DNA from: Planctomycetota bacterium
GTDB taxonomy: Bacteria > Planctomycetota > Phycisphaerae > UBA1845 > UTPLA1
Length of the DNA: 64,000 nt
Direction of reading: 5' to 3'
Assembly: GCA_015654675.1 (NCBI GenBank)
Contig: JAATGM010000059.1
Span: 1-64,000 of the forward strand
Under the pieces are notes generated by a model, which was not told where the DNA came from, did not search any database, and saw only the letters and a program-made list of their open reading frames with translations. Made by a program: the position numbers and the translations under genes. Below are positions 19,123 through 45,707 of this stretch, in pieces (positions within the stretch are counted from its first letter, which is position 1; each line of letters begins with the position of its first letter).

Positions 19123-19196
19123 CGGGGCGTGGCGCAGTCCGGCAGCGCGTCTGCATGGGGTGCAGAAGGTCGCAGGTTCGAATCCTGTCGCCCCGA
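19123..19196 (+). tRNA. tRNA-Pro (anticodon GGG)
   Basis: A 74-base cloverleaf: acceptor arm CGGGGCG (19123-19129) pairs with CGCCCCG (19189-19195), then discriminator A; CCA is not encoded. The anticodon stem TCTGC/GCAGA encloses loop ATGGGGT, giving anticodon GGG (proline). The T arm GCAGG-TTCGAAT-CCTGT is canonical. The integrase gene follows after 89 bases, so the 3' half of the tRNA is the likely attachment site and its 3' end was probably restored by phage DNA. Confidence 0.95.
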
Positions 19197-19285
19197 TTCG
19201 AAATCCAAATATTGCAGTAGGTTACAGCTCGCGGGATGATTCCCGCCCGTTGGATATCTGTCCTTTTCGTGCGAGGACTGTCCTT

Positions 19286-20437
19286 ATGGGCCGGCCGAAT
19301 CACCCTCATCAAGTCTCCGATGGCGGCTACCGCTTCACCGTTCGCGGCAAGAAATACTGGCGAAAGAACATCGCCGCCGCGTGGGTCACGATTCACAAAC
19401 TCAAAGCAACGGATCCCGACGCACCGGCCCCGCGGCTGATCGTCGGCCTCATCCGCTCGTATGTCGCGCACCACGACAACGACCATTCGTCCGAGATGCT
19501 CGAGGAGCTTGAGACCTGGTCGGAGTCCGCCGGCGGCGTCCGCGAGCTGCAGGACGTCGATCGCGACACCCTGGTCAAGTTCTACAACTTCGTTCGCACG
19601 CGACTGAGCAGACGCGTCAAGAAGGGGAAAGAGGCCAAGCCACTCGGCCGCGAGACGATTCGAAAAAAGGTGCTGCACGCGGCTGCGTGCTTTCGATGGG
19701 CCCACAATCGCGGCCTGATTGACGTCATGCCGGATGTCCCGCGGCTGAAGAAGCAGCCGCCCAACCCGAAGGCGCTCACGTCTGAAGAGCTGGGGAAGGT
19801 TTTCGAAAGTCTCGAAGCTTCCACGAAAACGAAGCACGCGACGCCGCTACTCCGGTTCATTCTGGAAGTCGGGTGCCGGCCGAAGGAGGCCCGGCGCCTG
19901 CGTTGGACTCAGATCGACTTCGCCCGAAAGTGCATCACCCTGACCGAGCACAAGACCGACGCCGGCGGCGACTCGCGCGTCATCCACCTGGCCAAGACGG
20001 CGATCGAGATCCTGAAAGCCCAGCCCCGCACAAATAGATTTGTGTTCCTGAGCTCACTCAAGAAGCCCTACACCCGGGACGGATTTGCCAGCATCCTCGA
20101 GCGCCACGGCCTGACCCCCTACCGATTGCGGCATACCTGGTGCCAGAATGCGACGGACCGGTGCGTCGACGACAAGGCGATCATCGCGATGATGGGCCAT
20201 CGCTCATCTAGGATGGTTGAAATGTATCGTCGGATCTCTGACGAGCGCGTGCGAGCTGCCGCCGCTCTGCTAGATGGGCTCTCGCGGCCTGAGCTTCACA
20301 TTCAAGGTCGGAAGCCGAAGGCCCCCGAAGGCGAGCCCCACCCTTCCTCAGATACCGCTCCACCGCCTCCCGCTCAAACCGATATGTCACGCGAGTCGGC
20401 TTCCCATCCGCCCGGCGAACTCCGTGCAGCCGGATAG
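19286..20437 (+). CDS. int: phage tyrosine integrase
   Basis: A 383-residue site-specific recombinase. The frame is open back into the tRNA, but the ATG at 19286 gives the usual N-terminal arm-binding region (SDGGYRFTVRGKKYWRKN). After the SAM-like core-binding domain (about 55-150) come the catalytic residues: Arg198 (GCRPKEARRLRW), Arg282 in PYRLRHTW (the first His of the HxxR box is Tyr here), the GH of MMGHRSS, and nucleophile Tyr314 in VEMYRRI. It would insert and excise the phage at tRNA-Pro. Its Pro-rich last 30-odd residues lie antisense to the excisionase gene. Confidence 0.93.
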   Translation: MGRPNHPHQVSDGGYRFTVRGKKYWRKNIAAAWVTIHKLKATDPDAPAPRLIVGLIRSYVAHHDNDHSSEMLEELETWSESAGGVRELQDVDRDTLVKFYNFVRTRLSRRVKKGKEAKPLGRETIRKKVLHAAACFRWAHNRGLIDVMPDVPRLKKQPPNPKALTSEELGKVFESLEASTKTKHATPLLRFILEVGCRPKEARRLRWTQIDFARKCITLTEHKTDAGGDSRVIHLAKTAIEILKAQPRTNRFVFLSSLKKPYTRDGFASILERHGLTPYRLRHTWCQNATDRCVDDKAIIAMMGHRSSRMVEMYRRISDERVRAAAALLDGLSRPELHIQGRKPKAPEGEPHPSSDTAPPPPAQTDMSRESASHPPGELRAAG

Positions 20438-21848: not shown

Positions 21849-22078
21849 CCGAGCATCCGCCAAATCGCGTTTTCTGTTTCTCGTTCACGACGCATGATCT
21901 CGGGCGACCGCACCCGCAGGATCGTCTCCCGCGTGTCGATGCGTGCATCACAGTCGCCGCACACGTAGACCCGCCGGCGCTGCTGCTTGCTCTGCGTCCA
22001 CCGGGAATCGACGCTCGAAAGTCGATCGCCGCCGCACGCCGGGCATGGCATCACCGATGGAGTCGTTCGCGCTCTCAC
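21827..22078 (-). CDS. zinc-ribbon protein, hypothetical
   Basis: An 83-residue protein from GTG 22078, with GGAG eight bases before it and a four-base overlap (GTGA) with the HerA stop; ATG 22051 is an alternative without a good ribosome-binding site. MPCPACGG and VCGDCDAR provide a four-cysteine zinc ribbon, followed by a basic helix (EIMRRERETENAIW). Possibly a nucleic-acid-binding accessory to the ATPase gene upstream. Confidence 0.6.
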   Translation of the reverse strand: MRARTTPSVMPCPACGGDRLSSVDSRWTQSKQQRRRVYVCGDCDARIDTRETILRVRSPEIMRRERETENAIWRMLGWTAGFK

Positions 22079-23811
22079 GCCAGGGTCTCCGACATCCGGC
22101 ACTCGCGCTGCTCGATGAGCTGCCGCGACCGAAGCCGCTGCAGGTATGTATCCCGGCTGGAGCGCTTGTAGTTCGTGGCCTCGCTGATCGATTCGCGATC
22201 GACGGCCTTCGGATAGGCGTTGGCGATGATTTCGAGGATGCGGCGTTCGCCCTCGGGAAGTTCCTTCAGCCAATAGGCCAGCAGCTCGGCACCCGTCGGC
22301 AACGGCTCGAAGCTGCTTCCCAGCGCGGCGACGCCTTCCGTTGTCGCCATGATCGGATCGTTCCCGTCGACGTATCCCCGCTCACGGAGGCGTTGCAGGT
22401 AGGTGTCGCGACTACTGCGCTTGTAGCCAGTCAGCACGGTGAGCTGCTCTCGCGTCGCGCCCTTCGGGTATTGAGCGACGGCGGTCAGGACAATGCGCTC
22501 GCCCTTGGGGAGTGCCCCGCTGGAGTCGCGCGAAAATGAAGTCGTCCGAGGGGGTGAAACTGCGGGGCCGCTGGGTTTGGCGGGGCTTTTTGATGGAAAC
22601 TTTTCAGGAAACTTTTCGCCTGTTTTTGCGCACCCGGCTCGGATCGCGGCTGAAAGCTCGGCGAGTTGCGCGGCCGTGCTCCTCTGAATCTCTTGGACTG
22701 ATCCAGCCGACCGCATGGCGACGCCAACCGCATCCTCCAGCCGCTTAGCCAGCTTCTCGCACGTCGCTTCAAGCCGGCTGACCTGCGCGTCCTTCAGGAT
22801 GAATCGCTCGACCGTCTTCGTCTCGACCTTCGCGGCTGGCGCTGCCTTCGCCTGCTTCTCCAGTTCGGCTATGCGGCGCTTCAGCTCCTTCGGGTCGTTC
22901 GCCTTCGCCTCCTCGACCGTCTGCCGAATGCGATCCGTCAGCTTGGCGATGTCGATTTGAGCCAGCGTCTTCGGAACGATCCGCCGCTCGCCCGCCTTCG
23001 GTGTCGCGGACGAATTGAATGTGCGGCGGAGTGGGATCTGAATCCGCGCGAGGCGCCGAAGCCAGCCTGGCGAATAGACCCACGCCTCACCCTGCTGGAA
23101 GCCTGGCAGCGTTTTGAGGATTTCGTCGCGATGGCCCTTGTCTGAGTGGTGCTCCAACCAGCTCTCGATCGCGGCGATATCTTGCGGCCCGGTCGTCTGA
23201 AGCGCGACCAGGCACTCCGTCTGCGTGAGAACCGACTTATTGAGCACTGCCGACCTCTGGGTTATCAGAGTCACGCCGATGCCGCGAGCCCGGCCGCGGC
23301 GGACGACGTTCTGCATCGCCCCCAGCGACTTCGCGGCGTCGCCGGTCATTCCAGACTGCGGCGCGAATTCGTCGGCCTCATCCACGAACAAGTGGACGGC
23401 GTCGCGATTGAGCCGATAGAAGGTCGCCGCGAAGTCCGCGACGAACCGCTTCATCTCACCCTCGCCCATGAGCGAGATATCGAGGATCGTCGAGACGCGA
23501 TCGCGTACAAGGAATTCCGCGACCATCTTGCCGGCTGTCGGCTCAAGCGGCACGTCGGCGTGCTCGCCGCCCATGATGAGAACCTTGTAGCCCTCGTGCT
23601 TTCCGTCGGCGGATGATTTCAGACCCCACCAGGCGGTTCCGACCGGGTCGATCGCGATAATGAACTGTTCCTGGTCGAGGAACTGCTCCGCCATCACGAC
23701 GGCGGCGTTGCTCTTGCCGGCCCCTCGTCGCGCCAACAAAGCGAACGTCTGCGTCACCGCGTCGGCGGGCAGCTTGAAGTCCTTACCGTCCTGGGTCTTA
23801 CCGAGAATCAC
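22075..23811 (-). CDS. HerA-like ATPase with duplicated winged helix
   Basis: A 578-residue FtsK/HerA-superfamily ATPase. Walker A is ARRGAGKSN (about 27-35), Walker B is HLFVDEADEF (about 145), and NVVRRGRARGIGVTLITQR forms the sensor region typical of HerA and related DUF87 pumps. A helical/coiled linker (330-400) leads to two tandem winged-helix-like repeats, each containing the identical 14 residues YKRSSRDTYLQRLR. HerA proteins are hexameric DNA translocases that work with nucleases. A phage role in DNA processing or defence is likely; a PD-(D/E)XK-like gene lies 1.4 kb upstream in the same operon. Confidence 0.85.
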   Translation of the reverse strand: MILGKTQDGKDFKLPADAVTQTFALLARRGAGKSNAAVVMAEQFLDQEQFIIAIDPVGTAWWGLKSSADGKHEGYKVLIMGGEHADVPLEPTAGKMVAEFLVRDRVSTILDISLMGEGEMKRFVADFAATFYRLNRDAVHLFVDEADEFAPQSGMTGDAAKSLGAMQNVVRRGRARGIGVTLITQRSAVLNKSVLTQTECLVALQTTGPQDIAAIESWLEHHSDKGHRDEILKTLPGFQQGEAWVYSPGWLRRLARIQIPLRRTFNSSATPKAGERRIVPKTLAQIDIAKLTDRIRQTVEEAKANDPKELKRRIAELEKQAKAAPAAKVETKTVERFILKDAQVSRLEATCEKLAKRLEDAVGVAMRSAGSVQEIQRSTAAQLAELSAAIRAGCAKTGEKFPEKFPSKSPAKPSGPAVSPPRTTSFSRDSSGALPKGERIVLTAVAQYPKGATREQLTVLTGYKRSSRDTYLQRLRERGYVDGNDPIMATTEGVAALGSSFEPLPTGAELLAYWLKELPEGERRILEIIANAYPKAVDRESISEATNYKRSSRDTYLQRLRSRQLIEQRECRMSETLA

Positions 23812-24881: not shown

Positions 24882-24894
24882 AGATCACCAATGT

Positions 24895-24930
24895 GCCCGG
24901 CGCGTCGCCGTGGCCGTTGACGCGCCGGGC
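24895..24930. other. perfect 12-bp hairpin in early operon
   Basis: GCCCGGCGCGTC (24895-24906) is the exact inverse of 24919-24930, with a 12-base loop. Neither strand has a T run after it, so it is not a simple terminator; it may stabilise mRNA ends or pause transcription. Just upstream on the minus strand (25023 to 24949) a GGAGG-preceded GTG opens a 24-codon frame that could be a leader peptide, but this is weak. Confidence 0.5.
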
Positions 24931-25054
24931 GGATAAGTCTGCACAGGACTACGGCCGCTCAACTTGATGCCGCTTTTCGCGAGCTCCGCGGCTCCACTCG
25001 CTACTTGCGGCTGCCACAGTCACATCGATCCTCCGTGCTAGAAGGCCACGCGTT

Positions 25055-25841: not shown

Positions 25842-25877
25842 AGCAGTAGCAGCACGCACGACACAGGCCGCACTCGC

Positions 25878-26576: not shown

Positions 26577-26615
26577 GCGAACACCACTTCCGAAACGCGG
26601 CTACAATCGCGCGCA

Positions 26616-26822
26616 ATGGACGATCGTTTTCTCATCAAAGTCGACATTGAGCGCCTGAAACTGACGCTCTCACGCTCTGAACGCCGCCAGTGGAGCGACC
26701 AAGAGGTTTGCGATTGGCTGGGGCGCAATGGGTTTCTTGCGGGGCCCGAGGGCTGGACGGTGGAGGCGAAAAACATAGGGCTGCTGGACGCCACGGAATA
26801 CGCTCTCATTCGACAGCTCTGA
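26616..26822 (+). CDS. small plus-strand protein in the early region
   Basis: A 68-residue frame from ATG 26616; a TTG at 26565 would add 17 residues. It reads like a small alpha/beta protein (RFLIKVDIERLKLTL; WSDQEVCDWLGRNGF). It is the only plausible gene on this strand inside the minus-strand operon, divergent from the previous gene by about 40 bases and converging on the primase gene with a 7-base gap. It may be an independently transcribed regulator. Confidence 0.5.
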   Translation: MDDRFLIKVDIERLKLTLSRSERRQWSDQEVCDWLGRNGFLAGPEGWTVEAKNIGLLDATEYALIRQL

Positions 26823-26829
26823 GTCGGCG

Positions 26830-27657: not shown

Positions 27658-27983
27658 CTCGCGTCCTCATTCGTCCCGGAGCCGGAGGGAACCCACTCCA
27701 AAGACGACCCCCCAGCCCCCCTATTCATTGGGGATTCGTGGGGTCGATTGGGTTCGTTTCAGCCGCTCCCCGGTCGCACAGACCGTTTCGCGGCGGGAAC
27801 GCTCAAAGCGCTATGTTCGTTCGCGCTTGCGCGACCCAGCGGGGCAAAAGGCGGTTTGGTTCACCGCACATACCCGGCGTCAGTTGTCCCGTTTGCCATC
27901 GGGCCCAACTCCTGAATCCCTGCCGACCCGCCACGATTTGGTCCCGGCGTGGCAGGGTTCGACCCGCCGGGCGTGCCCGTATT
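27658..27983. other. non-coding gap with hairpins, candidate origin
   Basis: A 326-base gap between the helicase and primase genes in an otherwise gapless operon. No frame looks coding. It contains G-rich direct-repeat-like text near 27,725-27,755 (GGGGATTCGTGGGGTCGATT), a short hairpin TCGCGC/GCGCGA near 27,817-27,832, and an imperfect inverted repeat near 27,917-27,955 (CCTGCC...GGCAGG). Phage origins often lie beside primase and helicase genes. It could instead be a leader or promoter region for the primase. Confidence 0.4.
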
Positions 27984-29651
27984 TCATGCAACCGCGTCTT
28001 CCGCTGGTCGCTTCCATCCGTTTTCTTTGATCGCGTCGATGATCCGGCTGGCCTCGGCGCGTTTGACGTTCGTGTCGTAGCCGTAGCGGCGAAGCAGCTT
28101 CGCCTGCCCGAATGAGCACCGGCCGTCTTTGAACCGCGAGATGATGTTGCCGATGATCTGTTTCGCCTGGGTGTAGGTCAGCTCGTCGACGTTCGGGATC
28201 CGCTGCTTCAGGAGCAGCTCGCGCATCTTGTCGCTGATCTCCCTGCCCTTGTTCCAGCCGGTCTCGCGGGCGGGCTTGATGTCGAGAATGTCGAAGGGGT
28301 TCACCGACTGCGTGCTGTATCGCGCGGCGAACTTCAGCGTGCGACGCTTGGCCTCTTCGAGCTTGCGGTTTTCTTCTTCCTGCTCGACCTGGGCGCGCTT
28401 CAATTCCTCGGAGACGTTCGCGGCGTCGCCCTTCTTCTCGATCTCTCGCTTCGCCCGCTCGACGACGATGTCTTCGTAGTTCCCGCCAAGGATGTCGGCG
28501 GTGGTGATCAGCTTGTGGCTTCCGCTGTTGCCGACGAAGTCGAGCACGAGGAGGTGGCTCTTATCAGAGTTGCCGATGGCGTTGCGGCGTTCGTCGGCGT
28601 CTTCGAAGGGATCGACCACCCCCGCGAGCGGCCGCGTCCCGCGTCCGAGCATCTGGGCGTAAAGCGCCCGGCTCTTCGTCGGCCGGCCCATGACGACGAC
28701 GTCGATGTCGGGCGCGTCGAATCCTTCGGTGGCGACGCCGACGTTCACGAGGAACTGGAATTGCCCGGTCGCGTACTGCCGGAGCAGCTCCCGCCGGCGA
28801 TCCTTGTCGGTGTTGCCGAAGATGCACTCGGCCGCACCGGGCTTGTGTCGATTGATGATCTCGGCGACCCGCTCCGCCTGAAGAACGGACGCCGCGAAGA
28901 AGAGGGTCTTGCGGTTTCCGACGATCTGCAGAGTCGGATGAACCATGCCGTGCAGCGGCTCTTCGAACTCGAGGACGCGGGCCAGGTCGGCGCCATTCAA
29001 GTCCCCAGCCGTTGTCCGGACGCTGCTGATATCCAAGCCGGAGACCGGCACGAACTGCTGATCAATGGGAACGAGCCAGCCGTCGGCGATCATTTCGACG
29101 ATGCCGTAGTCTTCGCCGAACGCGACAGACTCGAAAATCTTCCCGAGTGCCTCTTCGTCATGCCGATCGGGCGTCGCCGTGAATCCGCAGATCTTCAGCT
29201 TCGGATTCTGGCGGTAATAATCGAGCACTCGGCGAAACGACGTGCTGGTGTAGTGATGGGCCTCGTCGGGAATGACGAGTGAGAACTCTTCGGGCTTGAA
29301 CCGCGACATGCGGCCGTCGCCATTGCTCCCGGAGTTTTGCGTCTGAACCGTGCTGACGATGATCGGCGACCGCTCGCCGAAGAGGCCGCGTTCATTCGCC
29401 CACTGCCCGGCCATCTCGACGTCAGCCTTAATGCCCGTGACCGTTTGGATTTTCTGCCTCGCTTGGAAGATCAGCTCTTCGCGATGGGCGAGGACGAGAC
29501 AACGGCCGTGCTGCATGAAATGCTTGATCAGGTGCGAGAATACGACCGTCTTGCCGCCGCCCGTTGGCATCACCACGAGCGTCGACTGCACGCGCTGGAG
29601 CTCATCCAGCACGGCGTCGAAACAGCGGCTCTGATACGGACGGAGTTCCAT
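27984..29651 (-). CDS. superfamily 2 DEAD/H helicase
   Basis: A 555-residue helicase. Motif I is MPTGGGKT (about 28-35), motif II PDEAHHY, motif III FTATPDR, and motif VI ends in QMLGRGTRPL. The overall layout (LRPYQSRCFDAVLDELQ start) resembles the SSL2/RAD25-type and type III restriction helicase branch, without a nuclease domain. A C-terminal helical region (about 410-555) is phage-specific. It probably unwinds DNA during phage replication or recombination. Its start shares one base with the stop of the ParB-like gene. Confidence 0.9.
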   Translation of the reverse strand: MELRPYQSRCFDAVLDELQRVQSTLVVMPTGGGKTVVFSHLIKHFMQHGRCLVLAHREELIFQARQKIQTVTGIKADVEMAGQWANERGLFGERSPIIVSTVQTQNSGSNGDGRMSRFKPEEFSLVIPDEAHHYTSTSFRRVLDYYRQNPKLKICGFTATPDRHDEEALGKIFESVAFGEDYGIVEMIADGWLVPIDQQFVPVSGLDISSVRTTAGDLNGADLARVLEFEEPLHGMVHPTLQIVGNRKTLFFAASVLQAERVAEIINRHKPGAAECIFGNTDKDRRRELLRQYATGQFQFLVNVGVATEGFDAPDIDVVVMGRPTKSRALYAQMLGRGTRPLAGVVDPFEDADERRNAIGNSDKSHLLVLDFVGNSGSHKLITTADILGGNYEDIVVERAKREIEKKGDAANVSEELKRAQVEQEEENRKLEEAKRRTLKFAARYSTQSVNPFDILDIKPARETGWNKGREISDKMRELLLKQRIPNVDELTYTQAKQIIGNIISRFKDGRCSFGQAKLLRRYGYDTNVKRAEASRIIDAIKENGWKRPAEDAVA

Positions 29652-30502
29652 TACGCCCTCAGCTCCTCAGCGGCGGCGGTGAAGCGGGCCTTCCCGACCC
29701 AGCCGAGCTTTTTGCACAGCTCGCAGCCGTCGGCCCGGCATTGCGGACACGGCGCGTATGGCGCCGCGAACTTCACGGCTCGAATGGCGTTGTCGATGTC
29801 GGAGGTGACACCCTGATGATGGAGATGCTTTCCAAGCGGCGTACCACAGAGTGCTGTGACGGCCCTCTTCGCGCGATTCAGCTCAGAGACGATCGAGTCG
29901 AAAGCATCGGACCGGAACGCGGGCCAGAGCTTCTTCTCCTCGACCGGCTTGCCGAGTCCATCCGTCGGCGGCTGCTCTTGGACTTCGGGCCCCTCTGTGA
30001 TCTCCTGCTCCGCCTGTCTGAGTGATTTCTTACCCGCCTCAACCTCAGCGGCCTTTTTCGGGTCGGCGTTCGCCACTCGCTTCGCGCGACCAACCTGCCT
30101 GGCACTGGCGCCGGTGGCCTCGGCGGCGACCTTGGTTGATCGTTCAGCGTGCTCACCAATTGGCGACGACTTCGGACGCTTCTTGCGCGCCGCCGCTTCC
30201 TGCTCGAGGATCGGCAGCATCTTCTGCGCGATCATCGCCCGCTGACTCGGCGTCATGTGTCTGCGATGGAGGTTTCGAGAGATGGACCAGAGCACGAGCG
30301 AATCGCCGCCCTCCCATGCGACGGTTGGGCATTCGACGCCGAGTTCTTTGCAGGCCCGCAGACGGTTCTTGCCGTCGACGAGATAGCCCTCGTGCGTCAC
30401 GATCGGTTCGCGCACGCCGTGCTGCTTGATATCAGCCTTGAGCTTGCCGAACTCATCGTCCGACATCGGTGGAAATAGTTCACAAACGGGGTGAATCTTC
30501 AC
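29651..30502 (-). CDS. ParB-like nuclease-domain protein
   Basis: A 283-residue protein from GTG 30502 (GAGGGA upstream; an in-frame ATG at 30541 would add 13 residues). Residues 1-90 form a ParB/sulfiredoxin-like domain (HGVREPIVTHEGYLVDGKNR, with the GxxR-like loop), followed by a KorB-like HTH (TKVAAEATGASARQVGRAKR) and a C-terminal four-cysteine site (CPQCRADGCELC). Such phage proteins act as DNA-binding regulators, partition proteins or CTPase-type clamps. Confidence 0.8.
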   Translation of the reverse strand: MKIHPVCELFPPMSDDEFGKLKADIKQHGVREPIVTHEGYLVDGKNRLRACKELGVECPTVAWEGGDSLVLWSISRNLHRRHMTPSQRAMIAQKMLPILEQEAAARKKRPKSSPIGEHAERSTKVAAEATGASARQVGRAKRVANADPKKAAEVEAGKKSLRQAEQEITEGPEVQEQPPTDGLGKPVEEKKLWPAFRSDAFDSIVSELNRAKRAVTALCGTPLGKHLHHQGVTSDIDNAIRAVKFAAPYAPCPQCRADGCELCKKLGWVGKARFTAAAEELRA

Positions 30503-30547
30503 GGTGCGTCCCTCGCAATACCGCCCGCGCCAACGGGCCATCCTTGC

Positions 30548-30721
30548 CTACGATCGCGTCTCAGCCAGCTTCCGCTCCCGAACCTTCTCCCGATCGATCT
30601 TGATCTTCTCGGGAGCTGTGAAGCCGATCCGCGCCTTGTCCCCGCGGATGTCCACAAGCGTCACTTCGATTTCGTCGCCGATGAAAACCTTGCCGTCTCT
30701 CTCAACCGATAGAACCAACAT
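30548..30721 (-). CDS. csrA: CsrA family RNA-binding regulator
   Basis: A 57-residue protein, short enough to be missed by gene finders. It starts MLVLSVERDGKVFIGDEIEV and continues with ARIGFTAP and IKIDREKVRERK, matching CsrA/RsmA along its whole length. Leu4 and Arg44, key RNA-binding residues in E. coli CsrA, are at the same positions. AGGGAG lies six bases before the ATG. CsrA dimers bind GGA motifs in mRNA leaders and block or stabilise translation. Here it sits between a LexA-like gene and a ParB-like gene in the phage early operon, so it may act on phage or host mRNAs. Confidence 0.93.
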   Translation of the reverse strand: MLVLSVERDGKVFIGDEIEVTLVDIRGDKARIGFTAPEKIKIDREKVRERKLAETRS

Positions 30722-30751
30722 TTCGACTCCCTTCGAGTAAGTGGCGATCCG

Positions 30752-31141
30752 TCACTTCGAACAAGTTTCGATTGCAGCTCTGAGTCTCTTCATCACCGGT
30801 CCGGATGGCCGACCGTTCGCATCTTCAAACCACGCCAACGCCTCGCGCGCGATAGCCAACCACTCGACCTGGCTTGGGCCTTGCGGCTTCGGCAGGACGA
30901 CACCGTCGGCGAGCTCGATCGACCGGAGCTCGTAGCGTTTCGCGGGCTTCAAGATGCCGCGCAACTGCATGTTTCGAACGTGGCCCCAAATGGTGATCTT
31001 CTTTCGGCCAGACGCTTCCGCCAGTTCCTGCAGCGTCGGGTTCATTCCGTTTGCGGAACGGAAGTCGGCGATGAGCTTCGCGAGTCGCAATTGGCTCGGA
31101 CTGAAGAAGCTGATTGATGTACGAACGCGGCTCGTCTTCAT
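30752..31141 (-). CDS. LexA-type DNA-binding domain without protease
   Basis: A 129-residue protein. Residues 10-75 match the LexA N-terminal winged helix (SPSQLRLAKLIADF; PTLQELAEASGRKKITIWGHV). The autoproteolytic S24 domain is absent; instead there is a short C-terminal helical part (WLAIAREALAWFED). It could bind host SOS boxes or phage operators without being cleaved by RecA. ATG 31141 overlaps the helicase stop, with GGGAG seven bases upstream. Confidence 0.75.
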   Translation of the reverse strand: MKTSRVRTSISFFSPSQLRLAKLIADFRSANGMNPTLQELAEASGRKKITIWGHVRNMQLRGILKPAKRYELRSIELADGVVLPKPQGPSQVEWLAIAREALAWFEDANGRPSGPVMKRLRAAIETCSK

Positions 31142-32997
31142 TTGAGCACTCCCGCTTCCGCCAGGAACCGCGACGGCGGCTTGATGCCCCACTCGCCGTT
31201 CTGGTCTTCCTCACGGCGCCAGTGAAGGGCGAGAACTTCCTTCGCCCGCGTGAATGCGACGTAGCCGACGTTTCGCTCTTCCGAATCGCATTCACCGCGG
31301 CTGATGCTCTGCGAGCTGGGGAACTCGCCGTCGTTGAGGTTGGCGACGATGACCGCCGGCCATTCGAGGCCCTTGGCGGCGTGGACGGTGAGTAGCGTGA
31401 CGACGTTGTCGCTGGGGAGATCGGCCTGGGCATCGCGCGTGCCGAACCATTCGAGGGCTTCGGCGAAGGTCATGCCGGAGCAGTTATCAATCCAGAAGCT
31501 CGAAACCGGCCGGGTGTCCAGCGCCTGAGACAGCGCGATCACGTCGAACGGGATATGGCCCGGCGGGTCTTCGCACTTCTCCCCCCGCTCTCGGATTTCC
31601 TTGACGTCCTGAATCTCCTCCGCCGACTGGATATGCCCGCCGCACTCGATGAGGCGCTCCAACTCGGTGGGCTGCCCAACGCGCATGAACCTCATAGCCC
31701 GGAAGTGCGAAACGCCGCCCTGTGCTGTCGCTCGGCGAACCTCAGCGTAGTCCGTCGCCGACAGTCCGAACTTGTCCACCAGTCGCAGGAATGCCAGATT
31801 GTCCGAATGATTCACGCACAGCCGCATGGCCGCGTGCAGTCTCCGAAACTCCTCCGTATCGCAGATGTCGAAACCAGCCCCGACGCGATGACGTGGGATG
31901 TTGGCCTCATCACAGGCCGCGGCGATTCCAGTGAGGGCGCGGTGGGTACGAGCCATCACCGCGATATCCCGCCAGGCGAAGCCCTTCTCGCGGACAGCAT
32001 TGATTCTCGCGACGACGTCGGCCGATCGGCCGTTGAAGTCCTCCACCACGCCGTTGCGGCCCGTGGCGGCGATCATCGGCTCGGAGACGTCGGCGCCGTT
32101 GTGGGCGATGAGGGTGTTCGCGACGTGGACGATGGCGGCGCCGCTTCGAAAGTTCTCACGAAGCTGGATCAGCTCGGCGGACGGGTGGCGCTTCAGACAG
32201 AGAGCCGGACGCGCCCCGCGCCAGCCGTAGATCGATTGTCGGAAGTCACCTACCGCGAAGAACGTCGCCGGCGGCGAGAAGAAATCATGGAGATCGAATT
32301 GCGTTTCGTCGGAGTCCTGAATCTCGTCAACGACGACGTGGCGGATCTGTGCCCGGTAGGACTCAAGGACATTCGGATGTTCCGCCAGCAGCCGCCGGCA
32401 CTCGGCGAGGATGCTGCCAAAGTCCAGCGCGTTGAGCTGAATCATCCGCGATCGATATTCGGCCAGGATGCGGTCCCCCTCGACCGTTCGCGTCCCCTCG
32501 CTGAGCTGGCCGGTGTAGAGCGCCTCGCGGTAGCCGCTCACGGACTTCCACGAGAGGCCTGACTTAAACTTGTCGCCCTTCATGTAGCCGAAGTCGCGGC
32601 AGACTTGCTTGAGCAGCACGTCGGCGTCGCTGGGATCGATGATGGTGATGGACGGGCCGTCGAGGCCGATCTTGTCGCCGTCGCGCCGCAGGATCCGCAG
32701 CGCGGCCGAGTGGAACGTGCCCAGCATCATGTAAGCCACGATGCGGTCGGCGTTTTCGTGGCCATCTTCGGTGAGCCCGCGGATGAGCCGTTCGCGCATT
32801 TCGCCGGCGGCCCGTCGGGTGAACGTCAGGACCATGAAATCGTGCGGCGATGCCCCATCGGCGAACAGTCGGCGGAGGCGAGCGACCATGACGCTCGTCT
32901 TGCCGGATCCCGCTCCGGCCAGGACCAGCACTTCGCGCGAGTCCGTCACAATGGCTCGCGTTTGCGCTGCGGTGAATCGTGCGAGGTCGAGCTTCAT
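31138..32997 (-). CDS. UvrD/Rep-type superfamily 1 helicase
   Basis: A 619-residue helicase starting at ATG 32997 (GGAG six bases upstream). Motif I is VLAGAGSGKTS, motif Ia TFTRRAAGEM, motif II is modified (VVDEIQDSDE), motif IV YGWRGARP, motif V LTVHAAKGLEW, motif VI VAFTRAKEVL. Complete motif set, so an active 3'-5' DNA helicase is likely, serving replication restart or recombination. The 2B region is shorter than in host UvrD. Confidence 0.92.
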   Translation of the reverse strand: MKLDLARFTAAQTRAIVTDSREVLVLAGAGSGKTSVMVARLRRLFADGASPHDFMVLTFTRRAAGEMRERLIRGLTEDGHENADRIVAYMMLGTFHSAALRILRRDGDKIGLDGPSITIIDPSDADVLLKQVCRDFGYMKGDKFKSGLSWKSVSGYREALYTGQLSEGTRTVEGDRILAEYRSRMIQLNALDFGSILAECRRLLAEHPNVLESYRAQIRHVVVDEIQDSDETQFDLHDFFSPPATFFAVGDFRQSIYGWRGARPALCLKRHPSAELIQLRENFRSGAAIVHVANTLIAHNGADVSEPMIAATGRNGVVEDFNGRSADVVARINAVREKGFAWRDIAVMARTHRALTGIAAACDEANIPRHRVGAGFDICDTEEFRRLHAAMRLCVNHSDNLAFLRLVDKFGLSATDYAEVRRATAQGGVSHFRAMRFMRVGQPTELERLIECGGHIQSAEEIQDVKEIRERGEKCEDPPGHIPFDVIALSQALDTRPVSSFWIDNCSGMTFAEALEWFGTRDAQADLPSDNVVTLLTVHAAKGLEWPAVIVANLNDGEFPSSQSISRGECDSEERNVGYVAFTRAKEVLALHWRREEDQNGEWGIKPPSRFLAEAGVLK

Positions 32998-33248
32998 GCT
33001 GGCTCCCGCGTCCCCTCGCATGGCGCGACCGTTTCAATTTCGCTGGCCTTGATCTTCCGCTTCCGTCGCACGCGTGCTGTCTTCACGACGAGGTCCGTGC
33101 AGTCGTTGCAGAGGTCGCTGCTGTGGAAGGCCTTCGTCAGCGGATCGCGGCGGTCGACGAATATCTCGACCTTGAGCGCCGGGGCTCGGCCGCAGCGATC
33201 ACAACAGACCGCCTCTACCTCCGTTTTTGTCGTGATCATCTTCTTCAT
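32994..33248 (-). CDS. small zinc-binding protein
   Basis: An 84-residue protein from ATG 33248 (GGAG nine bases upstream). CDRCGR and CNDCTD, 33 residues apart, make a four-cysteine zinc site, followed by a basic stretch (RVRRKRKIKA). A DNA-binding accessory of the neighbouring helicase is plausible. Overlaps the helicase start by ATGA. Confidence 0.6.
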   Translation of the reverse strand: MKKMITTKTEVEAVCCDRCGRAPALKVEIFVDRRDPLTKAFHSSDLCNDCTDLVVKTARVRRKRKIKASEIETVAPCEGTREPA

Positions 33249-33292
33249 GCGGCAATGCTCCAAAGTGCTCGCGCCGGCGTCTCTCTGAATTC

Positions 33293-33700
33293 TCAACTAA
33301 CTCCGCCGGCGCGAGCGGGTTCCGGTTCAAGGCGGATTTCGGTCTCATAGACAGCGACGCTTCGCCCCGCGATCAGCCCGATCATCTTGAGAGGCGGATG
33401 CGGTGCGTCGCAGATGGAATCGAGCCGCGCGGTCACGCGCTCGAATTGTGGGATGGTCCCGGGAGTGCCGTAGCCGAAGCTGGCCGAGACGGTGCAGCGG
33501 CCTTCGGAGACACTGATGACTAGCCGGATCCCGTCTTCGAAATCAAAGACGTGCTTCCGCTGCCGACCCGGTTGAGTCTGCAGGCAGAGCTTGACGGCCT
33601 CGTCGTCGTAGTTGTCTTCGACGGCCCGGTGGAAGCGCGCCCGCATTGATGCGATCGACTCGGGTCGCCAGTCGATTTGTCCCGCGTGCAGACGCATCAT
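33293..33700 (-). CDS. hypothetical phage protein
   Basis: A 135-residue protein with an alternating beta pattern (HVFDFEDGIRLVISVSEGRC; RSVAVYETEIRLEP). No motif I recognise. Its ATG overlaps the stop of the SMC-like gene, so the pair is probably co-translated. Confidence 0.55.
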   Translation of the reverse strand: MMRLHAGQIDWRPESIASMRARFHRAVEDNYDDEAVKLCLQTQPGRQRKHVFDFEDGIRLVISVSEGRCTVSASFGYGTPGTIPQFERVTARLDSICDAPHPPLKMIGLIAGRSVAVYETEIRLEPEPARAGGVS

Positions 33701-36237
33701 GCCGCCACCGTTTCGCTCAGTGTGATCTGATTCCAGCCCTCGATATCAGTGGAGAATCCCTCGTTGCAGGTGGCGACGAGGATGTTGCCCACGTCCCCAG
33801 CGACAGCTCGCAGCCCGTTGAGCAGGTGCGTCATGTGATTGCTGTCCACTTCGGCGGCTTCGATCAGTAGCAGCCTGAGCGGAGGGTTCGCGATGCACAC
33901 GAGGGCGTAAGCGAGTGCCCCGCCGAAGAGAGCAGCTTCCCCGCCGGAAAGCGCCGGGAGCGGAACGCGGTACATGCCGTCCACCTCCCAGCCGATTTCG
34001 AAGATTGGCTTGCGCGTCTCGCCCTTGACCTGTTCAAGCTCGCAGTACGCGACGCGACCGGGCGCTGCGACACTGAGGAACTTGTTCATCCGCTCCAGCA
34101 GCGGCCGAACCAGCTCGCCCATGAGTCCGTCCCGCAGCGCCCGGATCGCCGCCGCGATCTGCTTGGCGACGTCGTGGCGGACCGTCTCGGATTCCGTCGC
34201 GACGATGGCCTTCTGCAACTCTGCTTCGAGTGCCTGGAATCGGTTCTTGAGGTCGAGGTCCGCGTCGACGTTCGCGATCTGCTCCGTCAACGCCGTCCGC
34301 TGGGCTTCGACCTGCTCCGCCGGCACCCACCCCCCCGCCGACCGGAGCTCGTTCATCTGCCGCTCGGTCTCAATGCGGTTCTTGCGCTTCGCTTCGAGGT
34401 CGGCCAGGTTCTGATCGTGCAGCTTGATCGCCGCCGCGATGCCGTCGGCCCTCCGCTCCAAGTCGGTCGCGAGCGTCTCGATCGCCTGCTGCTCAAGCCG
34501 CTCGACGTCTTGCATCGCCGTCTTGGCAGCGCGGAGCGTGTCCCACTTCTGGCGGGCGCTCGTCAGCTTGGCATTGAGGTCCGCCGTCAGTGAGCGAGCC
34601 GCCGCCGCCTTACCTTCGACGGCCTGCGCGGCGTTGGCGGCGTCGTGGGCCGTCTTCTCTGTGGCCGAGACGCCAGCGTCCGCTTCAGTTAGCCGCGCCC
34701 GCATCGCGTCGACAACCGTCGTCGCTGAGTTAAGGCGGCTCGTCAGCTCGGCTTCCCGCCCGACGACGGCGCCGGTCTCGATGATCGTCTGCAGCTCGTT
34801 GATGATCTGGAACTGCGGCGCGGTGAGCGTCGGGCCTTCCGCGAGAAACGACTTGAGCTTGGCCAGCGCCCGCGACCATGGGCCCGAGCGGTATTCCTCG
34901 ATCGCCAGCTCCGCCGACTGCCGCGCCGCCTCGGCCTTCTGCAGCTCCGCCCCGATCGTGTCGCGCTGGCGGACCGCCTCGCGCCGCACTTCGTCGGCAG
35001 CGTGGTATGCCCGCGTTGCGGCTTGCACGTCCGGATGAATGACGGCCTTGAGGTCAGCCTCGATGCCAGCGATCGCCCGCTCGGCGTCGGCAAACTCTTC
35101 GCTGGTGGGGTTCGCCAGCTTCCGCCGCTTCTCTGCGGCCTGAGCGAATAGCGGCGCCCCGGCACAATCAGTGAACCGCGCGACGGTCTCGGCGACTCGG
35201 GCGTTGTCTGTGCGGATCGACTTCGCCGCGACCCGCAGCACTTCCGCGTCCGCCGCCGTCTGAATCTTCACGCCAGCCAGCGTCTGCTCGAGGCGGTGGA
35301 TTTCGGTGGTGGCGTTGTCGAGCCGGTTCTGCAGCGAGCGGAGCGACTCCTCGCGGCCCTTCTGATTCTCGATCTGCCCGACGATCTGTTCGCGTTGCTT
35401 GAGCAGGCCCTCCCGATCCGCCTTCATTGTCTCGACGGTCGCTGCCACGACTCGCATGGCATTCTTCTGGTCGGCCAGCCGGGCCTTGGCCGCGTTCGCC
35501 TGGTCGCAGGCCGACTTCGACGCGTTCTCGACCGACTTGGCCTTGGCGAGCGCCGCACCGATCGACTCCGTCAGCTCGCCGACGATCTCTTCACGGACCG
35601 CCGCCATGATCGAATCGAATGCCTCGCGTCGATCCTTGGCGAGGTCGGCCTTGAGGAAATCGATCAGCTCTGCCTGGGTGCCCCGGTGCATTTTGATCGC
35701 CATGTCGACGGTGCCGGCGCCGCGTTCCAGCTTGAGCCACTCGATCGAGATGCGCCGAACGATGCCGTCGACGTCGAGCTCCGCCGACTTCTGAGCCCGG
35801 CCGCAGAGGTCGAGGATTTTGGATCGCTGCTTGTCCTGTGACAGCCCCGTGAAGAGTGAGAGGTTATACATCTCGGCCAGCTCGCCGACGCGCGTCTTCA
35901 CGAGCGGCTCGGTGTCCTTGAGCTTCACCGAATCGTTGCCCGTGACTTCTAGCGTCTGCGTGATCGTTCCCGACCGGGAATCACGTCGCAGTCCCCGCTC
36001 GAATGAAAATCCGTCATCGAGCCGGACGCGGACGCTCGCCTCGCCGTTGCGGATGAGCTGGGCCGTCGCTTCGGGTCGATCGCCGAGAGCGGTACGCCCC
36101 TCGATGGCGAACTGGATGGCTTGGAGAACCCCAGTCTTTCCGGATCCGTTCTCGTCGGCCATTAGGTTGCAGCCGGACAGACGGATGCTGGAGTCCAGAT
36201 TCTTGAAGCCGGAGATGTGAAGTTCTTCGATCCTCAC
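33697..36237 (-). CDS. SMC/RecN/SbcC-like ATPase
   Basis: An 846-residue protein from GTG 36237, which overlaps the upstream stop (GTGA). It begins RIEELHISGFKNLDS with Walker A DENGSGKT (about 28-35), continues with a long coiled coil (about 230-740), and ends with the ABC signature PALSGGEAALF (about 761) and a Walker B-like LRLLLIEAAEVD in which the usual Asp before Glu is Ile. The architecture is that of SbcC/Rad50 or RecF-like phage recombination ATPases. No SbcD-type nuclease is adjacent; the next gene may be its partner. Confidence 0.85.
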   Translation of the reverse strand: MRIEELHISGFKNLDSSIRLSGCNLMADENGSGKTGVLQAIQFAIEGRTALGDRPEATAQLIRNGEASVRVRLDDGFSFERGLRRDSRSGTITQTLEVTGNDSVKLKDTEPLVKTRVGELAEMYNLSLFTGLSQDKQRSKILDLCGRAQKSAELDVDGIVRRISIEWLKLERGAGTVDMAIKMHRGTQAELIDFLKADLAKDRREAFDSIMAAVREEIVGELTESIGAALAKAKSVENASKSACDQANAAKARLADQKNAMRVVAATVETMKADREGLLKQREQIVGQIENQKGREESLRSLQNRLDNATTEIHRLEQTLAGVKIQTAADAEVLRVAAKSIRTDNARVAETVARFTDCAGAPLFAQAAEKRRKLANPTSEEFADAERAIAGIEADLKAVIHPDVQAATRAYHAADEVRREAVRQRDTIGAELQKAEAARQSAELAIEEYRSGPWSRALAKLKSFLAEGPTLTAPQFQIINELQTIIETGAVVGREAELTSRLNSATTVVDAMRARLTEADAGVSATEKTAHDAANAAQAVEGKAAAARSLTADLNAKLTSARQKWDTLRAAKTAMQDVERLEQQAIETLATDLERRADGIAAAIKLHDQNLADLEAKRKNRIETERQMNELRSAGGWVPAEQVEAQRTALTEQIANVDADLDLKNRFQALEAELQKAIVATESETVRHDVAKQIAAAIRALRDGLMGELVRPLLERMNKFLSVAAPGRVAYCELEQVKGETRKPIFEIGWEVDGMYRVPLPALSGGEAALFGGALAYALVCIANPPLRLLLIEAAEVDSNHMTHLLNGLRAVAGDVGNILVATCNEGFSTDIEGWNQITLSETVAA

Positions 36238-37709
36238 GCGAGCACCCACCCTTCCGCGACGTCCTTCGCCGCTGCGAGCCATTCCTCAGTCGTCTTGGGC
36301 CGATCTTTCTTCTTCGATGCGATTTGAGTTTCGAGCGCACGCGCGGTCTTGATCGCCGCCAGGGCGCGGCCCGGTGAGATACTCGCGGCGTCGTCGCCGA
36401 TGAGCGCTTTCGTGAGCGCGTCGCGCGTCGTGATGTCACCGACGATCTTGACGATGAGCCGCCGCGTATCAGAAACCATCCCCGCCACGTCGATGCTCAA
36501 CGCGTTCACCGCGGCTTCGAGCTGTTCGATCTCGCCGCACTCGCCGATCCATGCCAGACCGGCCGGCAATTGGGCCGTGATGAGGATGTCGTCGGCGACC
36601 GCGTGATCGAGCTTGCCGTACAGGTCACGGACCTTCGCTCGTAGCTCATCGACCCGCTTAGCTTGCCCGTTGTCCTTGACCGGCGGCGCGCCAACTGGGA
36701 CGCCGATGCCACTCGGCTCGGGCTCGCCGTCGGGCTCCGGATGCTGCATGTCTTCGTCAGCATCCCCAGCGAGCGCCGCGTCGATATCCTCGCCACCGAC
36801 AACTTCGGCATCGCGTTGAAGCTCCAGCTCTTCGCCGCCGACTTCGACTTTCCCGGCGGCGGCATCGGCCGCGACCTTCGCGAGCTGCACGATGTCGCGA
36901 TCGACGGTCTGCCAGGAGACGACGGGGACCGTCAGGTTGTTGGGATTGAGCTGAGCGGCGGCGTAGAACTTCTTGAGGATGTTCCTCTCGCAGATCGTCC
37001 ACGCGTTTCGCTCGCCGAACTTCTGGCGCCCGATGTGCTCACTGATAAGGACGATCGCCTCTTTCTTCGTGAGGTCGATCGCGAGAACGACGCCCCCGGG
37101 GCATGCGACGAGCTTGCGCTTGCCGTTTTTCTTGACCTCTTCGGGGACTGCGTCGGCGTCGTAGATTTCGCCCCAATTGGCGAACGTCGCGTCCTTCTTC
37201 TTGCCGGTCCACTTGGCGAAGACGTCTTGAGCGAAGTAGTCGCGGATGTTGTAGGTGACCGTGAGATCGATCGCGATCAGATTACCGACCGCGTTCCGCC
37301 CGATGCCGATGCGTCGGCATTTGACGTACATGATCTCGCCCTTCTCGCGGTGAAAATACGGGTTCGATGTGGGCTTGCCGTCTTCGGCGACCAGTGTCTC
37401 CGGCGTCGCGAAGCTCATCCCGCCGAATTGATTCAGCTTGTTGTAGCCCGCGGCGGTGATGGCGCAGCGCGCCTTTGGGTTCCACTGCTCGCCGACGAAT
37501 GCCCCCATGTGCCAGATTTCGCCGCGCGCTTCGGAGAGTGGGACGTGGACGAGCGTCGACTTCACGAGCCCGTTCGCCGTGCTCTTAACGATGGCTGTGA
37601 GCGGCGGGCCGTCTTTCGTCTCTCCGGGGAAGACCGCGAGAACCGCTTCGCCGGGCTTCAGAGTGGGCGGCTTCTGTTCTTGCCGCGTGATTGCAGTTGT
37701 GCTGGACAT
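36234..37709 (-). CDS. unrecognised early protein, possible recombination partner
   Basis: A 491-residue protein, the first of the recombination block. It has a folded N-terminal part (about 30-280; SEHIGRQKFGERNAWTICER and NNLTVPVVSWQT), an acidic linker (about 300-350), and a helical C-terminus. Position next to an SMC-like ATPase suggests a recombination or single-strand-annealing function, but I cannot match it to RecT, Erf or Rad52. Its ribosome-binding site is one of two identical AGGAGTCGT copies. Confidence 0.65.
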   Translation of the reverse strand: MSSTTAITRQEQKPPTLKPGEAVLAVFPGETKDGPPLTAIVKSTANGLVKSTLVHVPLSEARGEIWHMGAFVGEQWNPKARCAITAAGYNKLNQFGGMSFATPETLVAEDGKPTSNPYFHREKGEIMYVKCRRIGIGRNAVGNLIAIDLTVTYNIRDYFAQDVFAKWTGKKKDATFANWGEIYDADAVPEEVKKNGKRKLVACPGGVVLAIDLTKKEAIVLISEHIGRQKFGERNAWTICERNILKKFYAAAQLNPNNLTVPVVSWQTVDRDIVQLAKVAADAAAGKVEVGGEELELQRDAEVVGGEDIDAALAGDADEDMQHPEPDGEPEPSGIGVPVGAPPVKDNGQAKRVDELRAKVRDLYGKLDHAVADDILITAQLPAGLAWIGECGEIEQLEAAVNALSIDVAGMVSDTRRLIVKIVGDITTRDALTKALIGDDAASISPGRALAAIKTARALETQIASKKKDRPKTTEEWLAAAKDVAEGWVLA

Positions 37710-38807: not shown

Positions 38808-39209
38808 ATGCACAATGAAATTGTGGATTGGATACAGAAATTCGAAGCGGTTTTGGGCGACAAATCGTATGCCCAAATCGAGCGCGCGGTGGGGTGGAGG
38901 CCGAACACGCTTTCGACAAAGATCAAAAAGCGACAGACTCCCGCCGCCGACGCGGGAATCCGCCTCGCGCGAGCCCTGCGCGTCTCTCCCGACTGGCTAT
39001 TTGACGACAGCCGCGAACTACCCGCGGACCCGCCCTATGCCGAAATCAAGCAGATTGCTGATCTGGCGATGGCGCTATCCGGAAAACAAACTCCCGCTGA
39101 TCAGATAACTCCGGCTGAGCGAGCCGCAGAATTGGCCCGGAAGGCAAAGAAGGCAGGCATCCCAGCTCAACAGCGAACGCGGAAAGCGTCTCGCCGTCGA
39201 ACTGGCTGA
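38808..39209 (+). CDS. CI-like phage repressor
   Basis: A 133-residue protein. Residues 5-68 are a Cro/CI-type helix-turn-helix (KSYAQIERAVGWRPNTLSTKIKKRQTP is broken by a loop; then ADAGIRLARALRVSPDWL, a hallmark of XRE repressors). The C-terminal part is Lys/Ala-rich, without a LexA-like peptidase domain, so it would need an antirepressor rather than RecA cleavage. It is divergent from the ribbon-helix-helix gene. Confidence 0.8.
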   Translation: MHNEIVDWIQKFEAVLGDKSYAQIERAVGWRPNTLSTKIKKRQTPAADAGIRLARALRVSPDWLFDDSRELPADPPYAEIKQIADLAMALSGKQTPADQITPAERAAELARKAKKAGIPAQQRTRKASRRRTG

Positions 39210-43719: not shown

Positions 43720-44224
43720 GGAGATATGGAATCCAACCAGCGAACAGGTCGAAAAGTTCGCCAACATGATCGCCAACGGCGACTCCGCCGAGGCAATCGC
43801 GACCGCGCTCGGGATCAGCATTTATGTCGTCTCCCACGTCCGCCGCGGCAATGCCCATCGTGAAATCCTCGAACTTGCCAATGCCATCAGCGAGGCCCAT
43901 GCCGAACGTGTCATCCGCATCGCCCAGCGCGACGCCGCCGGCATGTACGGGGAGCTGCGCAAGATTGCGCGAAACGATTCCAAAGGCATCCCCCCGGAGG
44001 TTCAACGCGCCGCCATCGTCGACACCCTCAACCTGGCCCTCTCCCGCAGCACCACCGGCGAGCAAACCGGCGGTGGCGGCGGCCTGGGTCCGACGGACCT
44101 GGCCTCTTTCGTAAAGGCACTCATCACCGATGACAGCGTCGATCCGGAACAGGATGAACCGGGTAGTGGGCCACAAGCAGATACGCCCGGGGCTCCTCCT
44201 CCAGCAGAGAACCCGGTCGGCTGA
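43712..44224 (+). CDS. putative small terminase subunit
   Basis: A 170-residue protein from TTG 43712 (GGAG seven bases upstream, overlapping the previous stop). Residues 9-50 form an HTH (NGDSAEAIATALGISIYVVS), followed by long helices (ISEAHAERVIRIAQR) and a Gly/Pro-rich tail, as in TerS oligomers that recognise pac or cos DNA. The large terminase gene follows. Identification rests on position and HTH rather than on a clear family match. Confidence 0.65.
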   Translation: MAREIWNPTSEQVEKFANMIANGDSAEAIATALGISIYVVSHVRRGNAHREILELANAISEAHAERVIRIAQRDAAGMYGELRKIARNDSKGIPPEVQRAAIVDTLNLALSRSTTGEQTGGGGGLGPTDLASFVKALITDDSVDPEQDEPGSGPQADTPGAPPPAENPVG

Positions 44225-45707
44225 ATACCCCACCCCGCCGGCTGAAGACGCCGACCTCATTCGGCGCGTGAACGCCGATCCCGTCGCATACGCCCAGCTC
44301 TGGTGTGGCCGCTGGCTGTGGCGCAAGCAGCGGGAAGTCCTCGACTCGATCCGCCTCAACAAGAAAACGGCCGTCGCTTCCGGTCACGGCGTCGGGAAAT
44401 CCGAAATCGGTGGAATCGCGGCCTCGTGGTGGATGCCCACGCACCCCTCGGGAATGATCGTCACCACCGCCCCCACCGAGCGGCAAAACGTCAAGATTCT
44501 CTGGGCCCGCATCCGAACCCTCCACGCGCTCGCAGCTCGCAAGCGGATCAGGTTGCCCAGCGGCGCCGTCCTGGATTCTGGGCTTGGGGGCGAACTGCTC
44601 ATCAAGGAATGGAAGTTCGCGCCGGACTGGTTCGGCGTCGCCGTCTCGGCCAAGCAGCCCGAGAACTTCGCCGGCTGGCACGCCGACGGCGGCGTTCTCA
44701 TGATCATCGAGGAGGCCAGCGGCGTCTCCGACAGCGTCTACGAAGTCGCCAATGCATGCGTCACCGGCACAAAGGACCGCATGCTGGCCATCGGCAATCC
44801 CACCAAGCCGACGGGTTACTTCCACAGCATCTGGCACAACTCAACGGTCATGGAGCAGTGGCACCGCATCCACATGAGCTGCGAGGACCTCACAGCGGAT
44901 GACCGCAAGAAGATTCCCGGCCTCGTGGGCGAGCAGTGGATCAAGGACCTCGAGAAGGAATGGGGACGAGAAAGCGACATCTTCCGGGTCCGGGCGCTGG
45001 GCCTGTTCCCCCGCGGCGTCGGCATGATCCTGATGCAAATGGACGACATTTGCTACGCGATGGCGCGCGACGACCTGTCCGAGGCGCTCACTGAGCTCAA
45101 GCCGGAAGACCCCCGGCCCATCGTCGGCATCGGTGTGGACTGCTCGCGCGGCGGCGAGGATGAGTTCGTCATCACGCGCTTCGTCGGCGAGGTCCAGACC
45201 CACATGGAGACCTACGTCGGCGACGAAACCAGCGACTCGGCCTTGATGCGAAAGCGGGTGCAGGACTTCTACCACAAGCACGGCGCCGACATCATCGGCA
45301 TGGACACCCTCGGACTGGGCGGTCCGATCTTCGACGAGCTCAAGGACCTCAACTATCCGGTGGATTCGTTCGTCGCCAACGCCAAACCGGAGGAAGAGCC
45401 CACCGCGCAAGCCACCTTCTGCGACCTGAAGACCGAGGCGTATTACATCGTGGCAATGGATGTTAAGGAGCGGCTGATCCAACTCATCGAGGACGACAAG
45501 CTCCTCGGCCAACTGCACGATCAGCCCTACGAATGGAAGAACGGCTTGATGCGGGTGCTCAGCAAGGAAGATCGCCGGCGAAAACTGATGAAATCCCCCG
45601 ACCGAGCTGAAGCCGTGATGATCTGCCGCTGGGCTCAACGGCGACACATGCGAGCACTCATCGAAGGGCCGAAGGGCCTCAACATCGTAGGTTACAACAC
45701 CACATGA
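44154..45707 (+). CDS. large terminase subunit
   Basis: A 517-residue packaging motor. Walker A SGHGVGKSE (about 75-83), Walker B VLMIIEEASG (about 181-190), and the RNase H-like nuclease domain from about 320 with GIGVDCSRGGEDEFVI (catalytic Asp about 329) and IIGMDTLGLGG. The start is uncertain: ATG 44130, ATG 44154 and GTG 44166 are all in frame; 44154 has a short GGA five bases upstream. All overlap the TerS gene. It pumps and cuts phage DNA at the portal. Confidence 0.92.
   Translation: MNRVVGHKQIRPGLLLQQRTRSAEYPTPPAEDADLIRRVNADPVAYAQLWCGRWLWRKQREVLDSIRLNKKTAVASGHGVGKSEIGGIAASWWMPTHPSGMIVTTAPTERQNVKILWARIRTLHALAARKRIRLPSGAVLDSGLGGELLIKEWKFAPDWFGVAVSAKQPENFAGWHADGGVLMIIEEASGVSDSVYEVANACVTGTKDRMLAIGNPTKPTGYFHSIWHNSTVMEQWHRIHMSCEDLTADDRKKIPGLVGEQWIKDLEKEWGRESDIFRVRALGLFPRGVGMILMQMDDICYAMARDDLSEALTELKPEDPRPIVGIGVDCSRGGEDEFVITRFVGEVQTHMETYVGDETSDSALMRKRVQDFYHKHGADIIGMDTLGLGGPIFDELKDLNYPVDSFVANAKPEEEPTAQATFCDLKTEAYYIVAMDVKERLIQLIEDDKLLGQLHDQPYEWKNGLMRVLSKEDRRRKLMKSPDRAEAVMICRWAQRRHMRALIEGPKGLNIVGYNTT

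Follow-up and report, generated by a model that had tools for sequence, protein, structure and literature searches.

A prophage of a planctomycete encodes a CsrA predicted to be autoregulated and insensitive to host FliW

Within the stretch of planctomycete DNA analysed here (64,000 nucleotides, hereafter the window), a prophage in the chromosome of a Phycisphaerae-like bacterium carries a small csrA gene in its early operon. Our preferred reading, to which we assign a probability of about one half, is that the product is an autoregulated, FliW-insensitive CsrA that would act mainly on host mRNAs such as that of flagellin. Phage csrA genes are themselves already known; what is new is the host group, the conserved place in the operon, the loss of residues at the FliW contact, the paired occurrence of V6 and K46, and a predicted binding site in the gene's own leader.

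The initial annotation had described the 57-residue product (MLVLSVERDGKVFIGDEIEVTLVDIRGDKARIGFTAPEKIKIDREKVRERKLAETRS) as matching CsrA over its full length, including Leu4 and Arg44, and both profile and fold comparisons place the protein in the CsrA family. The open reading frame occupies exactly the interval then proposed and lies on the minus strand, and no similar protein is encoded on the plus strand of 30548–30721. The profile search that had been suggested as a test returned Pfam CsrA (PF02599) with an E-value of 1.8e-15 and 57.1 bits against a curated cut-off of 27, wherein residues 1–50 of 57 align with positions 1–50 of 53 and hence with the full domain. PHROG 9500 ("CsrA-like regulator") was matched with an E-value of 1.9e-12, and a sequence search of the PDB recovered CsrA/RsmA/RsmE chains (E 3e-8). 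With a single-chain model of medium confidence (pLDDT 75) as the query, the best Foldseek matches were all CsrA/RsmA/RsmE structures, with 2bti at the top (probability 1.00, TM about 0.6). The alignment confirms Leu4 and Arg44 and shows that the RNA-contact residues Leu2, Ala36, and Ile42 (at the V/I42 position) are also kept. The protein would be expected to form a homodimer that binds GGA in hairpin loops.

The element that bears csrA is a complete prophage integrated in tRNA-Pro, as its earlier description as phage-encoded had implied. It spans ~72.6 kb between two exact copies of the 3′ end of the tRNA gene (Table 1) and extends beyond the window; attR is absent within 20 kb of the window and is present on the next stretch. 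The hallmarks of a temperate tailed phage are all there, namely an integrase, att repeats, a repressor, a terminase, a portal protein, and tail genes. The early operon (20528–37709, minus strand) does include csrA, as had been proposed, and terminase, portal, head, and tail genes form a late module on the plus strand. The neighbours of csrA encode a small winged-helix protein on one side and a ParB-like protein on the other, and the gene for a UvrD-type helicase comes shortly before it. The ParB-like assignment of the downstream neighbour holds, but the "LexA DNA-binding protein" named upstream of csrA is a resemblance by eye that gives no significant Pfam or PDB match, and its PHROG matches are two weak families of unknown function. 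Between the repressor and the late genes, a 273-residue protein (40373–41194, minus strand) weakly matches PF03118, the RNA polymerase alpha C-terminal domain, with a score of 22.5 bits that narrowly misses the cut-off of 23.8.

Table 1. Positions of the csrA gene, its leader hairpins, and other prophage features in the window
Feature	Position	Strand	Basis or remark
attL, 44 bp, 3′ end of tRNA-Pro(GGG)	19155..19198	plus	exact copy attR at C5:91746-91789 of the contig
Tyrosine integrase adjoining attL	19286..20437	plus	phrog_1, E 2.6e-39
HerA-like ATPase, early operon	22075..23811	minus	PF01935; 47% to the gene of the related prophage (L070)
ParB-like protein directly downstream of csrA	29651..30541 (start 30541 or 30502)	minus	phrog_4715, E 2.4e-21
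csrA, 57 aa	30548..30721	minus	PF02599 57.1 bits, phrog_9500, PDB CsrA chains
Hairpin TCGA[AGGGAG]TCGA	30723..30736	minus	ANGGAX hexaloop with the csrA Shine-Dalgarno; predicted autoregulatory site
Hairpin AAGTG[ACGGATCGC]CACTT	30739..30757	minus	ACGGA in loop; predicted second CsrA site
Small winged-helix (LexA N-terminal-like) protein upstream of csrA	30752..31192	minus	by eye
UvrD-type helicase	31138..33021	minus	PF00580; 37% to the L070 gene
SMC/SbcC-like ATPase, early operon	33697..36282	minus	PF02463; homologue in L070
CI-like HTH repressor	38808..39209	plus	phrog_4 "transcriptional repressor", E 5.4e-6
Terminase large subunit, late module	44166..45707	plus	phrog_2, E 2e-26
Portal protein, late module	45704..47251	plus	phrog_21, E 8.4e-23

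CsrA prefers ANGGA in the loops of short hairpins, which in SELEX experiments mostly had six-nucleotide loops and stems of at most four pairs, and it can bridge two sites that are 10–63 nt apart (PMC7652899). Two hairpins with such loops are predicted in the csrA leader, the second being 20 nt upstream of the first and overlapping the stop of the upstream gene. This leader is the only one among those of the 65 genes called in the window to have an ANGGAX hexaloop on a stem of at least 3 bp, and when its flanks were permuted 20,000 times, two stemmed loops arose in 0.14% of cases. The inner block of the first hairpin, CGAAGGGAGTCG (30724–30735, 12 nt), is identical in a related prophage whose neighbouring proteins are only 28–47% identical. 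A stemmed ANGGAX loop is present in 30 of the 83 csrA leaders compared versus 18 of 625 background leaders, although the associated p value of 9e-19 overstates the difference because the leaders are related and the enrichment is in part inherited similarity. Given ANGGAX in the Shine-Dalgarno zone, a hairpin is found in 23 of 68 csrA leaders versus 13 of 103 in the comparison set (p 0.001). Note that the whole csrA leader folds no better than shuffled sequences (z 0.07) and that its minimum free energy structure differs from the hexaloop, and therefore the hairpin would need to be selected by the protein. From these patterns we infer that csrA is autoregulated via the hairpin on its own Shine-Dalgarno.

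The same leader survey bears on the proposal, made in the initial annotation, that the protein works inside a prophage switch, wherein it would control the translation of early or immunity genes and hence the choice between lysis and lysogeny. The gene does lie among early replication and recombination genes, much as its counterpart in Pseudomonas phage phi297 lies near recombination genes, and the immunity region that precedes the early operon holds two ANGGAX loops with stems on the minus strand, one near 38393 and the other near 39305. However, among the window genes only csrA itself has a leader hairpin of this type, and the cluster of ANGGA motifs near 39290–39330 is at about chance level for the search space, as estimated from motif counts. 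The proposal is thus left unsupported, and we consider it unlikely. Also in the immunity region, at 39290–39419 on the minus strand, three ACGGA motifs lie within 40 nt behind a promoter-like site, and one of them belongs to a 6-bp stem that is the longest of any ANGGAX loop in the window; the arrangement may be a leader to which CsrA binds or may have arisen by chance. We considered but rejected an RNA from this region that would act as a CsrA sponge, given that the cluster is no denser than expected by chance across the whole window.

The host genome has csrA genes of its own, a matter that had been put forward for checking. A canonical copy (G000:C62:142819) resides in the order flgL-fliW-csrA-flagellin with fliW just upstream, and the remaining copies comprise one CsrA-histidine-kinase fusion and two divergent genes with a loop insertion. 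The only FliW in the genome adjoins the canonical chromosomal csrA, and no fliW is next to the phage gene. FliW-CsrA-flagellin circuits are known in B. subtilis and C. jejuni, and their target hairpins are of the type seen here. The phage protein is 53% identical (30/57) to this canonical CsrA, with which it has Leu2, Leu4, Ala36, and Arg44 in common and from which it differs by Ile in place of Val42, by V6 and K46, and by the lack of I/V51, Asn55, and a C-terminal tail.

These last differences fall on the contact with FliW. Binding of FliW to C. jejuni CsrA depends on V51, on N55, and on the stretch beyond residue 55, and it is reduced by the V51A and N55A substitutions and by a 20-residue C-terminal deletion (PMC7829508); the role of N55 is credited there to earlier work in B. 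subtilis (cited in PMC7829508). Asn55 is present in all 40 sampled chromosomal csrA genes with fliW in the examined flank and in none of the seven CsrAs of the phage group marked by a HerA-like ATPase. Because 23 chromosomal copies that have no fliW in the examined flank also do not carry Asn55, its loss is, as far as these alignments indicate, a mark of leaving FliW control and not of phages as such, and the difference could also reflect general divergence. Since the window protein has K51 and T55 and ends at residue 57, we infer that FliW would be unable to restrain it, and the phage CsrA is probably blind to the FliW of its host.

The histidine-kinase fusion is a chromosomal 302-residue protein (L002:754–1659, minus strand; G000:C48, near 35615–35773) with CsrA (76.8 bits), HisKA, and HATPase domains in one open frame, and a narrow literature search found no report of such a fusion. 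By eye, CsrA is joined to a cytidine-deaminase-like domain in a protein of 235 residues (L074, G121:C73) and to an H-box-like stretch and a receiver-like domain in one of 269 residues (L143, G419). The two divergent host proteins (G000:C30:84754–84900 and 87222–87386) carry an insertion of 6–8 residues after strand 1, and similar proteins are encoded at L069, L071, L072, and L133. Such genes are often paired at a distance of a few kb and accompanied by repeated small genes (whose proteins contain "FEQEYMGRGPKE"); in some of them, a strong ANGGAX hairpin is retained at the start of the gene itself.

An unplanned result concerns the flagellin mRNAs of this class, in which a conserved hairpin of the CsrA type encloses the Shine-Dalgarno, so that the host half of the circuit becomes predictable. 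In the host itself, the leader preceding the flagellin gene (G000:C62, before 143182) reads CAATC[AAGGAG]GATTG, with the Shine-Dalgarno in the hairpin. An ANGGAX hairpin is found in 27 of the 31 flagellin leaders located beside csrA in the host's class, mostly over the Shine-Dalgarno and typically in the form CAATC[ANGGAG]GATTG. Stem pair 4 shows compensatory changes, remaining paired in 26 of 28 cases, and none of 500 shuffles gave as many. By this covariation and conservation, flagellin is the best-supported candidate for a host CsrA target in the class, and it would most likely also be a target of a FliW-blind phage CsrA.

CsrA is a global regulator, and a general takeover of host CsrA targets in metabolism, storage, and motility, for which neither FliW blindness nor flagellin would have special relevance, overlaps with the reading we prefer. 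A precedent is plasmid-encoded RsmQ, which imposes global regulation on the Pseudomonas that carries it (PMC9928087). Such a takeover would, however, leave the loss of the FliW contact unexplained, and no global target set is predictable here, such that we judge it rather unlikely. A narrower purpose would be counter-defence through repression of cas genes: RsmA is a repressor of CRISPR-Cas in Serratia, and an anti-CRISPR role has been proposed for the RsmA of phages (PMC8450108). We rank this as very improbable because no Cas1 was found in the host genome (96% complete); a type III system that lacks Cas1, or a different host, would leave room for it.

Two changes that the initial annotation did not mention are the replacement of Arg6 by Val and of Glu46 by Lys. 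R6 is present in 82 and E46 in 79 of the 83 CsrAs compared, and V6 and K46 each occur once, in the window protein alone. Arg6 (strand 1) and Glu46 (strand 5) are near-universal, yet the PF02599 profile does not require them. Arg6 is one of the positions that contribute more strongly to RNA binding in the E. coli and C. jejuni proteins. For RsmE, the R6–E46 salt bridge has been called indispensable (PMC6692469), and the two residues come from different subunits at one RNA site (Arg6A and Glu46B; PMC4005645). Loss of Arg6 may therefore weaken or alter RNA binding by the window CsrA.

A poor RNA binder that entered mixed dimers could act as an inhibitor and lower the activity of host CsrA, and the uniqueness of both replacements, the contribution of the two contacts by different subunits, and a very long branch in the CsrA tree (1.8 changes per column) are consistent with this. 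Nevertheless, the other contact residues from Leu2 to Arg44 are kept, as are the CsrA-type sites in the protein's own leader, whose Shine-Dalgarno block is unchanged between two diverged prophages, and the charge changes on both sides point to homodimers rather than mixed dimers. An inhibitory role consequently appears quite unlikely to us; the paired replacements may instead bias the protein towards pairing with itself rather than with host CsrA.

The view that csrA genes are mostly chromosomal, which the initial annotation had stated, overstates the rarity of phage copies, given that csrA was reported in 30 of 2517 phage genomes (PMC7366521) and on IMG/VR contigs (PMC8450108). The search of phage proteins that it suggested yielded 60 phage-collection records that match CsrA at the sensitivity used, a few of which are bacterial contigs. 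Salmonella and Acinetobacter records in the collection were rejected on this ground, and the fecal contig MT836588 was left out as probably bacterial. Three records listed as phage (CAKLQH020000034.1, AGRM01000002.1, and MT836588.1) show a bacterial csrA context, with alaS near csrA or fliW beside it, and records of this kind inflate counts of phage csrA.

Among the closest known parallels are the CsrA proteins of Pseudomonas phages F116 and phi297 (PHROG 9500/5527; RsmM type in PMC7366521), which likewise belong to temperate phages, contain a CsrA domain, and are encoded in the early region near recombination genes. They are 123 residues long with an extra C-terminal part, keep Arg6, and are about 36–40% identical to the window protein, whereas the latter has 57 residues, V6, and K46 and comes from a host that bears FliW. 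We know of no use of FliW by the hosts of plasmid RsmQ or of CsrT from a Legionella ICE. Both are CsrA homologues on mobile elements of another type and in other hosts, with a demonstrated or presumed effect on the host (RsmQ, PMC9928087; CsrT, cited in PMC7366521). A functional analogy only is offered by TldR, which is described as a prophage-encoded, RNA-guided factor that sets host flagellin expression (PMC13418256); it is a transcriptional regulator unrelated to CsrA, and flagellin control by the window protein would be a predicted activity.

Direct scans of viral contigs and genome contigs returned no close relatives of the 57-residue protein. The first early gene and the UvrD helicase had no relatives in viral contigs, and the first early gene was found in no prophage but its own among the 298 class genomes searched. 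Relatives were reached via the terminase and then by two-sequence alignment of the HerA-like ATPase, the best conserved marker of the phage group. This ATPase is encoded in 20 viral contigs and several planctomycete genomes (L079–L098). The terminase led to a second prophage (G009:C451, L070) in another genus of the same family, which has terminase, portal, tail, HerA-like, UvrD, and SMC-like proteins in common with the first at 28–47% identity. Its csrA occupies the same operon place, separated from the homologous UvrD helicase upstream by a single gene that looks DEDD-exonuclease-like by eye. With the HerA-like ATPase or the terminase as the query, 21 IMG/VR records were recovered, of which five carry csrA; this can be set against the 30 of 2517 given above, although the two samples differ in hosts and in how they were drawn. 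A tree with host CsrAs, as had been suggested, was built from 78 sequences (60 columns); it gives no resolution of single branches, and the phage label needs about 10 changes. The tree fits, and does not prove, repeated acquisition of csrA by phages, as it suggests, and the prophage gene was most likely taken from a host of the same class.

Of the functions first suggested for the protein, the takeover of host CsrA targets is thus the one we favour, in the form of a CsrA predicted to be autoregulated and FliW-insensitive. The protein would be made when the early operon is transcribed. As a dimer it would bind, in the manner of host CsrA, to ANGGA hairpins located at ribosome-binding sites and would repress translation, and it would limit its own synthesis through the hairpin on its own Shine-Dalgarno. 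Because FliW could not restrain it, host targets would stay repressed in lysogeny or early infection, with flagellin first among them given that its Shine-Dalgarno lies in the same kind of hairpin. A bolder reading, which we hold to be less likely than not, is that the csrA of phages of this class has escaped FliW and remade its dimer interface (R6/E46 to V6/K46), so that it represses host flagellin and further CsrA targets independently while limiting itself.

If the preferred reading is true, the phage uses a host regulator yet escapes the host's control over that regulator, and position 55 and the missing tail should decide whether FliW restrains a CsrA. The findings also extend phage csrA to a phage group of the Planctomycetota, a phylum with little-known phages.
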